Source of the DNA: Methylacidiphilales bacterium | GTDB taxonomy: Bacteria > Verrucomicrobiota > Verrucomicrobiia > Methylacidiphilales > UBA1321 | DNA length: 64,000 nucleotides | Assembly (NCBI GenBank): GCA_026225555.1 | Contig: JAMFSY010000003.1 | Coordinates: 1 to 64,000, forward strand | Direction: 5' to 3' | In this document: positions 54,078-56,637 of the stretch, piece by piece | How the letters are laid out: each line of letters opens with the position of its first letter | Position numbering within the stretch: the stretch's first letter is position 1 | Made by a program: the position numbers and the translations under genes | The notes under the pieces: generated by a model | What the model saw: the letters and a program-made list of their open reading frames with translations, nothing else | Databases searched by the model: none | What the model was told of the DNA's origin: nothing

Positions 54078-54458
54078 TTAGACCTGTGCCGTCGAGTTCT
54101 TCGGCGAAACAACCTCGTCGATCCAATCGCAATCGGCCTTCATCTTTTTCAGGGCCTGAAGGTCACTCTTGAAAACAGGCTCGGTCTGGATGCAATCCTG
54201 AAGGCATCGCAAATGGGCTTCCAAAGCCTGCGGGACTTTCTTGGGAAGGGAATAGATCATCCAATTCTGATGCCGGTTGGCCTCGACCAAACCGTCCTTC
54301 TTCAAGCGGGAGAGATGCTGGGACACCTGCACCTGGGATCGGGCCAGGACTTCCTGGATATGGCAGACGCAGAGAGGCCGCTGAGCCAGAAGATTCAGAA
54401 TTCGCAGGCGTGTCTCATCGCAAAGGCACTGGTAAATCCGAACAAGTTTCATCTTCAC
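54078..54458 (-). CDS. arsR: ArsR-family arsenic-responsive repressor
   Basis: 126 aa winged-helix repressor. The DNA-binding helix region is VQVSQHLSRLKKDGLVEA (43-60) and the As(III) site is in PLCVCHIQ with C30 and C32; extra Cys occur at 11, 13 and in LRCLQDC (84, 88). The first start is GTG 54458; ATG 54452 is an alternative. It is divergent from the DUF6428-like/arsC/acr3 operon, with an inverted repeat covering the -35 of that operon, so it should repress it until arsenite or antimonite binds. Confidence 0.9.
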   Translation of the reverse strand: MKMKLVRIYQCLCDETRLRILNLLAQRPLCVCHIQEVLARSQVQVSQHLSRLKKDGLVEANRHQNWMIYSLPKKVPQALEAHLRCLQDCIQTEPVFKSDLQALKKMKADCDWIDEVVSPKNSTAQV

Positions 54459-54467
54459 GAATATAGT

Positions 54468-54499
54468 TATTTGACAATATACGTCAAATAGAATATTGG
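54468..54499. promoter_or_regulatory. ars promoter with ArsR operator
   Basis: TATTTGAC (54468-54475), 7 nt, GTCAAATA (54483-54490) is a perfect inverted repeat. TTGACA (54471-54476), 17 nt, TATTGG (54494-54499) forms a rightward promoter, so bound ArsR would cover the -35 and spacer. It lies ~10 bp from the arsR start, allowing autoregulation. Confidence 0.75.
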
Positions 54500-54584: not shown

Positions 54585-55091
54585 ATGAACATCGCTGAAT
54601 TCACCAAAATCGTATCCGCCCATCCCGACAAACTCATGACCTTCGTTCTGCCGAACGGAAAGAAGATCCCGGCCAGCTACCACATCACGGAAGTCGGCCA
54701 TGTGAAAAAGGACTTTATCGACTGCGGTGGCACCACTCGCTCTGCCTCCGCCTGTGTCCTGCAAGCCTGGGTGGCGGCGAACGATGAGGACCATCGCCTC
54801 ACCGCGGGCAAGCTCGCGACGATCCTGAAAATGGCGGCCAAGATTCTTCCCGCCGATGATCTGCCGATGGAACTGGAATACGAAGCACCGGTCATCTCGC
54901 AGTTTTCCATTTCCGATGCGGAAGTTGAGGGCGATTCGATCGTCTTTCGGTTAACGAACAAACACACCGATTGCCTTGCCAAAGAAAGCTGTGGCCTTGA
55001 AGGCGGTGCGTGCTGCACGGAAGAGAGCGACTGCTGCGGTTCGGACGAGGCACCCGAAACCGCGAGCGTGACGAAATCAGGCTGCTGCTGA
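54585..55091 (+). CDS. DUF6428-like ars-operon protein with cysteine-rich tail
   Basis: 168 aa, no signal peptide. N-terminal ~120 residues form a compact domain ([40 protein letters not shown]), a pattern I associate with DUF6428 proteins found in ars operons. The C-terminal 39 residues hold eight cysteines (130, 136, 143, 144, 150, 151, 167, 168), including three Cys-Cys pairs, ending in CC. Trithiol binding of As(III) is plausible. First gene of the operon after the ArsR-controlled promoter, 11 bp before arsC. Domain name given from memory of the family. Confidence 0.7.
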
Positions 55092-55102
55092 TTACTCCCT
55101 CT

Positions 55103-55549
55103 ATGACCCCAACCGCGAAACCTCACGTCCTCATTCTGTGCACGGGCAACTCCTGTCGCAGCCATCTCGCCGAAGGCGTCCTTCGGCATGCCGCCGGAGA
55201 CCTGTTCGAGGTTCATAGCGCAGGCTCCAAGCCGGCGGGATATGTTCACCCCCAGGCGATCCAGGTGATGAAAGAGATCGGCATCGATATTTCCCAGCAC
55301 ACCTCGAAGCACATGTCGGAATTCCTCGATAAAAAGATCAACACCGTCATAACGGTCTGCGGAAACGCCGACCAGGCTTGCCCGATGTTTCCAGGCCAGG
55401 TGAACCGGTATCATTGGGGCTTTGAGGATCCCGCCCACGCCAAAGGCACGGACGAGGAAGTCCTGGCGATCTTCCGCACGGTCCGCGATCAAATCAAACT
55501 GGTTTTCGAAGCCTACGCCGCCGGTTACCGCGAAGGGACGGTCGGATGA
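55103..55549 (+). CDS. arsC: Arsenate reductase, thioredoxin-coupled (LMW-PTPase type)
   Basis: 148 aa from ATG 55103. P-loop LCTGNSCRS with C13 and C18/R19, plus C87 and C94 in [14 protein letters not shown]. This gives the C10/C82/C89 relay of S. aureus-type ArsC, so arsenate is reduced with electrons from thioredoxin. The frame is open upstream to 55010, but this overlaps the previous gene and has no family similarity. The acr3 start overlaps the arsC stop by 4 nt: translationally coupled reduction and efflux. Confidence 0.93.
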
Positions 55550-56637
55550 CTGCGCGAACACAAGTTGAGCCCTCGGAAAAGCAACTCGATTTCTTTGAGC
55601 GGTACCTTTCCATCTGGGTGCTGGTTTGCATGGTAGCCGGCATCGTGCTGGGGAAAGTCTTCCCCGATCTCACCCATCGCGTGAGCCAATGGCAGTTTGG
55701 ACAAGGTTCCCAGGTGAACGTGGCGATTGCCGTTTTGATCTGGCTGATGATTTATCCCATGATGCTCAAGATCGATTTCGGCGGCCTTAAAGACGTCGCC
55801 CGAAAACCCAAGGGGCTCATCATCACGCTGGTGATCAATTGGCTGGTGAAGCCGTTCAGCATGGCCTTCCTCGGCTGGGTCTTTATCCAGGTCATCTTTT
55901 CGTCATGGCTCGGGTGGATCGAGCCGGCGACCGCTAAAAACTACATAGCTGGGCTGATCATCCTGGCCGCGGCGCCTTGCACCGCCATGGTGTTTGTCTG
56001 GAGCTACCTGACGGATGGCGATGGTCCCTACACGTTGGCGCAGGTGGCGATCAACGATCTGATCATGGTCTTCGCCTTCGCCCCCATCGTCATGCTGCTC
56101 GTCGGAGTCAGCGGAGTCCATATCCCCGGCAACGTCCTGTTCGTCTCAGTGATCGTCTTCATTGTCATTCCTCTGGCAACGGGCGCGTTGAGCCGGGTCG
56201 TACTCATCAAGGCCAAGGGGTTGATATGGTTTGACGCGCGGTTCCTGCCCAAGTTTCGTCCCGTGACCATCTTCGCCTTGCTGGCCATGTTGGTGCTCAT
56301 CTTCGCATTCCAGGCGGAAAACATCCTCTCGAGGTGGAGCATCGTTCTGCTTCTGGCCGTGCCCATTCTCATCCAGGTCTATTTTAACTCGGGATTGACC
56401 TACGGGTTAATGCGCCTTTTCCGGGTGCCTCACAATATCGCCACTCCCGGTTCGCTCATCGGCGCCAGTAACTTCTTCGAACTGGCCGTCGCCGTCGCCA
56501 TAACACTCTTTGGTCCCACGAGTCCGGCTGCCCTGGCCACGGTCGTCGGCGTTCTGGTCGAAGTACCGGTTATGCTCTCCGTATGCCGCTTGTGCATGAG
56601 GTCCCGTCCGTGGTACGAGCAAAGCCAGAAGGGCTGA
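55546..56637 (+). CDS. acr3: ACR3-family arsenite efflux permease
   Basis: 363 aa, ten hydrophobic segments. ACR3 hallmarks: [20 protein letters not shown] near the N-terminus, the conserved Cys in [20 protein letters not shown] (C145), [15 protein letters not shown] and [17 protein letters not shown] with the conserved Glu in TM9. It extrudes arsenite made by ArsC. Last clear gene of the ars operon. Confidence 0.93.

Follow-up and report, generated by a model that had tools for sequence, protein, structure and literature searches.

DUF6428, a cysteine-tailed partner of the arsenate reductase ArsC, is a candidate arsenite catcher in bacterial arsenic operons

Introduction

What does a small protein ending in eight cysteines do at the head of an arsenic resistance operon? 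This question is raised by the DUF6428 gene of the window, the whole stretch of 64,000 nucleotides analysed in the present study, for which a preliminary description had suggested a soluble arsenite chaperone or sink handing As(III) to the efflux pump ACR3. The locus also touches on a little-studied question, namely how arsenite is kept from harming the cell on its way from the reductase to the exit, especially where that exit is a passive channel. No paper naming DUF6428 was found in the open-access literature, in which the family accession PF20001 appeared only in an unrelated chemistry paper, and the analysis herein offers a testable role for this Pfam family of unknown function.

Results

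The operon in the window has the order DUF6428-arsC-acr3 with a divergent arsR (Table 1), consistent with the previous assignment of DUF6428 as the first gene of an arsenic operon. The stop codon of DUF6428 lies 11 bases upstream of arsC, and the 3' end of arsC overlaps the start of acr3 by 4 bases. The best match of the ArsC protein was TIGR02691 (144.9 bits, under the cut-off of 174.3), and its match to PF01451 was above the cut-off; the joint presence of ArsR, ArsC and ACR3 identifies a thioredoxin-type ArsC/ACR3 ars operon. The CVC motif of the regulator is presumably an As(III) site, as in the R773 ArsR. One ACR3 (that of the window), two LMWPc proteins and two aquaporins elsewhere were found in the source genome, in which no match for ArsD was found. 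ACR3 is the exit in this operon, and As(III) may be handed to it there.

Table 1. Locations of the features discussed in the text. Window features carry window positions; the others are given as locus:positions.
Feature	Location	Strand	Remarks
ArsR/SmtB regulator, CVC motif (RPLCVCH)	54078..54458	-	Divergent; NF033788 above its cut-off
Perfect dyad TATTTGAC-7-GTCAAATA (8-7-8), arsR/DUF6428 intergenic	54468..54490	.	Candidate ArsR operator, putative
DUF6428 (PF20001) gene	54585..55091	+	ATG start, 168 aa
Predicted globular alpha/beta body, residues 1-140	54585..55004	+	AlphaFold2; carries H33, T35, E36, D46, C47, G48, Q60, C130
Eight-cysteine stretch, residues 130-168	54972..55088	+	Predicted disordered from about residue 141 (pLDDT about 50); terminus GCC
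ArsC, thioredoxin-type arsenate reductase relative	55103..55549	+	P-loop CTGNSCRS, then later Cys pair
ACR3 arsenite efflux pump	55546..56637	+	TIGR00832 360 bits, cut-off 282.8
DUF6428-ArsC fusion	L043:6001-6873
DUF6428-ArsC fusion	L052:3433-4302
DUF6428-ArsC fusion	L110:6001-6867
DUF6428-ArsC fusion	L142:1438-2355		Frame
ArsC-DUF6428 fusion	L139:1453-2547	-	Frame
CC-tailed aquaporins in DUF6428 operons	L103:6472-7161, L072:5591-6259, L047:6485-7153, others		e.g. VREPGCCGGKC

Translation of the open reading frame bore out the eight cysteines, three CC pairs included, that had been described within the final 39 residues of the protein, the complete set being at positions 47, 57, 130, 136, 143, 144, 150, 151, 167 and 168. 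Against a background of 1.02% Cys, calculated over 3,820 residues in 12 further proteins encoded by the window, the binomial probability of at least 8 Cys in 39 residues is 5e-9, and among the open frames of at least 60 aa in the window DUF6428 alone reaches this density, the runner-up having 6. The protein had been called DUF6428-like, and a Pfam scan now places it firmly within the family: the PF20001 profile was matched over its full length (positions 2-155 of 155) at 151.4 bits, with a cut-off of 28.7. Since this match reaches the last profile position, the end of the tail belongs to the described family. No family of NCBIfam or PADLOC matched the protein, and PHROGs gave weak matches only (E 0.015 and 0.18).

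The conservation of the tail was surveyed in 143 relatives, of which 136 were distinct, the window protein included. These were drawn from four samples: a PF20001 search across 387 genomes from the phylum of the window (with matches in 41 of them, from which 30 loci were taken, leaving 29 relatives when the window's own copy, L003, was set aside), 6 of 24 plasmid matches, the best 80 of at least 584 named loci, and 27 relatives found among 196 surveyed genomes belonging to one planctomycete order; loci L118-L123 were excluded as repeats. H33, T35, E36, D46, C47, G48, Q60 and C130 were each present in 136/136 relatives, although the search patterns for the named set contained C130 or C47, so that these two residues, and not the CC, were partly selected for. 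The window protein has this invariant core, H33xTE36...D46CG48...Q60...C130, together with the CC tail. The preliminary description had allowed that the tail might be absent from most homologues; a CC downstream of C130 was found in 135 of the 136, and the notion of the tail as a peculiarity of the window protein was rejected, the CC tail being family-wide. A CC lies among the last four residues in 114/136, and C136 and C57 are present in 134 and 124, respectively. The number of cysteines from C130 onward ranges from 3 to 8 with a mode of 5, and the eight of the window protein, common to 3/136, are the top of this range. From C130 to the last CC, a stretch rich in Gly, Pro, Ala and Ser covers 6-42 residues (median 23). 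The copy on a Thermus oshimai plasmid has four cysteines in all, namely C47, C130 and the CC. Four bacterial copies were found later, two with a terminal CC and two without (L237 and L238); the latter pair adjoin arsC, and the aquaporins of the same genomes bear a CC tail.

An AlphaFold2 model built from 78 sequences had a mean pLDDT of 87.6 and a pTM of 0.76, with 10-residue block means of 84-98 up to residue 140 and about 50 past it. In this prediction, DUF6428 has an ordered body, confidently modelled as globular over about residues 1-138, and a loose arm of variable length with a conserved tip. Foldseek searches of the PDB with the body gave no match at E <=0.001 (best E 0.04), and an hmmsearch of alignment A3 against PDB sequences gave none at E <=10. 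The best VIA result had a Z of 3.5 (rmsd 3.1, 74 aligned), its rows being the glutamine synthetase N-terminal domain. The absence of a PDB match does not establish a new fold.

The gene partners of DUF6428 were counted within 5 kb in the best 80 of at least 584 named loci (phmmer, E 1e-5), several of which are clipped by contig ends. ArsC was found in 59 loci (fused in 3), ArsR in 52, an aquaporin in 34 and ACR3 in 19; ACR3 and aquaporin never occurred together, and 12 loci lacked ArsR, ArsC, ACR3 and aquaporin altogether. In the 30 loci of the phylum survey, that of the window included (1.5 kb flanks), ArsR was found in 28, ArsC in 24, ACR3 in 13 and aquaporin in 10, two of these aquaporins being weak matches on the opposite strand beside ACR3. 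At least three ArsC classes accompany DUF6428, and its plasmid neighbours also include MFS carriers, arsK and arsN2. On the tree of DUF6428 bodies, the exit must have switched between ACR3 (33 rows) and aquaporin (47 rows) at least 16 times, and at least 7 of these switches are forced by supported branches. Among the 41 DUF6428 genomes of the phylum, an ACR3 over the cut-off was found in 25 and no full-length ACR3 in 16, one of which has ACR3 split over two frames; ArsD was not found in 40, and the sole match has in-frame stops. Judged from gene context, the constant partner of DUF6428 is ArsC, which suggests that ArsC, not the pump, is the hub of these operons.

Natural fusions with ArsC were found in five planctomycete genomes, and both domains were identified by Pfam in each. 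In four MAGs, DUF6428 precedes ArsC in one frame, with the tail CC immediately ahead of the ArsC domain; in the fifth, the order is reversed and the ArsC is of a different class. As the P-loops differ (CIHNSARS versus CVENSNRS), fusion probably happened at least twice. In the model of the L052 fusion, the ArsC half matches solved ArsC structures (Bacillus subtilis 1jl3, E 2e-13, TMt 0.88); with a pTM of 0.51, no conclusion was drawn from how the two domains are arranged. Fusions of ArsC to AqpS, ArsR and ArsN are already known, and the excerpted text of PMC6205960 portrays ArsC as fusion-prone in general. No report of an ArsC-DUF6428 fusion was found in the open-access literature. Probable aquaporin-ArsC fusions, frames with matches to both proteins, were also seen in DUF6428-less planctomycete genomes (L176 and L177).

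Discussion

Herein, we propose, as a tentative reading that falls somewhat short of even confidence, that DUF6428 is an ArsC-side catcher or buffer of As(III) with a swinging CC arm and is indifferent to the exit used. This reading is based on the linkage to ArsC, the five fusions, the swapping of exits, the conservation of the thiols, the predicted combination of an ordered body and a disordered tail, and the lack of an ArsD match in 40 of the 41 DUF6428 genomes. In this mechanism, the body would contribute the thiols of Cys47 (in the DCGG turn) and Cys130, both invariant, and the vicinal pair on the flexible tail would swing onto the body, so that C47, C130 and the CC of the arm might capture As(III) upon its release from ArsC. 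The bound As(III) would be kept away from other cell thiols and yielded to any available exit, whether ACR3 pump, aquaporin channel or MFS carrier, and the extra Cys pairs of the window protein might add As(III) capacity. The binding of As(III) by DUF6428, the S3 site and the direction of transfer are postulated. Several observations are against a simple ArsC-side story: the 12 of the 80 named loci with no ars partner, the orphan planctomycete loci, the phage copies, nearly all without ars genes, the two CC-less copies beside arsC, and the general proneness of ArsC to fusion.

The main rival to As(III) holding is a redox role of the arm, in which DUF6428 is a thiol-redox helper whose CC hands electrons to the disulfide of ArsC or takes the intermediate over. 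CC arms exist in mercuric reductase and thioredoxin reductase, and both the occurrence of ArsC fusions in either order and a terminal CC borne on a flexible linker are consistent with such a helper. However, the fused and neighbouring ArsC proteins inspected retain the nucleophilic Cys and the later Cys pair, so no redox cysteine is missing; the several ArsC classes that accompany DUF6428 possibly use different reductants, and copies in orphan loci and phages also argue against this role, which we regard as rather unlikely.

Copies outside ars loci bear on a second alternative, in which DUF6428 is a general soft-metal or thiol buffer, not specific to arsenic, that has been adopted by ars operons and phages. 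Sixteen planctomycete regions were taken for a closer look, 14 without a partner in the short loci and 2 with a fusion; the 14 again showed no ars partner, and Pfam found no ars gene in 20 frames neighbouring the orphan copies. An arsC-exit pair elsewhere in the genome was present in 8/14 of the orphan-DUF6428 genomes versus 4/14 of the DUF6428-less ones, with no clear difference. In the viral scan, a single protein query gave no relative and an alignment query gave 40 IMG/VR loci (L245-L284), in addition to the copy in a 595-kb phage record (LR756511.1, L244:553-975). Two of these 41 phage-type copies are truncated, and 34 of the other 39 rows, many of them near-copies, end in CC; the Cys core is retained. 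Genes of the ars type were seen in the examined stretch of only 1/41 phage loci, a search of viral contigs with the window's ArsC gave none, and ten phage loci have, in the examined stretch, a gp23-type capsid gene strongly matching that of L280, whose major capsid gene was identified as Gp23 by Pfam (E 1.6e-87). The orphan planctomycete loci and the phage copies thus indicate that DUF6428 can serve a purpose even where no ars operon is linked to it, and the phage copies suit a general buffer better than ArsC-side holding. Nevertheless, the regularity with which ArsR and ArsC recur in the surveyed bacterial loci (28/30 and 24/30) and the ArsC fusions are against this alternative, to which we assign a fairly low probability.

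A further reading extends the ArsC-side proposal to a portable As(III)-thiol relay, leading from ArsC to exit thiols that include those of CC-tailed aquaporins, and carried as an auxiliary gene in large T4-type phages; this is a speculative reading, with little likelihood. Among distinct aquaporin C-termini from DUF6428 loci, 23/46 carry a CC among the final 35 residues, and none was found in 25 ACR3 and 80 ArsC proteins or, as a tail, in 7 ars-linked plasmid aquaporins without an adjoining DUF6428. With more controls, CC aquaporins were 23/47 when adjacent to DUF6428 versus 6/48 when non-adjacent, with 3 undetermined; the comparison limited to ars-linked aquaporins was weak (25/48 versus 3/14, Fisher p 0.066), and a tree-based pair test of CC aquaporin against DUF6428 had 5 supported pairs, too few for significance. 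The link may be a lead, for which shared ancestry may be an alternative cause. If the link were real, it would point to a thiol hand-off to the channel, and DUF6428, if the relay reading were true, would act as a metallochaperone in passive efflux through a channel.

An enzymatic or structural metal site, with HxTE...DCGG...Q being catalytic or binding zinc and the Cys tail holding zinc or a product, appears quite improbable: the core invariant in 136/136 relatives and the want of a clear solved-structure match would accommodate it, but neither family nor fold matches point to an enzyme and the long tail is predicted to be disordered. Very unlikely is the model of the preliminary description, a chaperone dedicated to ACR3, which draws on the ACR3 of the window operon and of 19 of the best 80 of at least 584 named loci, and of which the family-wide link to ars genes stands, but delivery to ACR3 as a family rule was rejected on context, given the aquaporin instead in 34 of the same 80, the 16 exit switches, the 16/41 genomes without a full-length ACR3, and the 0/25 ACR3 C-termini with CC.

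The flexible C-terminal vicinal Cys pair of MerA, the flavin enzyme mercuric reductase, presumably moves a soft metal to a site on the body, and the CC arm of DUF6428 resembles it in description. The As(III) catcher proposed here also has a counterpart in ArsD, which according to the excerpts of PMC6205960 and PMC2440759 chaperones As(III) for the ArsA ATPase; both are, to the extent of these excerpts, small soluble proteins of ars operons with vicinal Cys pairs and a proposed carrier role. Unlike ArsD, the window protein matches PF20001 only and not PF06953 in the Pfam scan, and the partner of DUF6428 is ArsC rather than ArsA. In the excerpted text of PMC6205960, Sinorhizobium meliloti has an AqpS/ArsC system and Salinispora tropica an AqpS-ArsC fusion. 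These resemble the 34 aquaporin-bearing DUF6428 loci in joining arsC to an aquaporin exit for arsenite, and in both settings ArsC fusions are a sign of coupling; DUF6428 is, however, unmentioned in that excerpt, and the window uses ACR3. Compared with a typical PF20001 member, which has five cysteines from C130 on, the window protein has eight.

The family ranges across Verrucomicrobia, Planctomycetes, Bacteroidota, Deinococcota, Rhizobiaceae, mobile plasmids and large phages. One of the plasmids, from Empedobacter falsenii (L032, NZ_CP040909.1), carries an ars cassette with DUF6428 together with tet(X).
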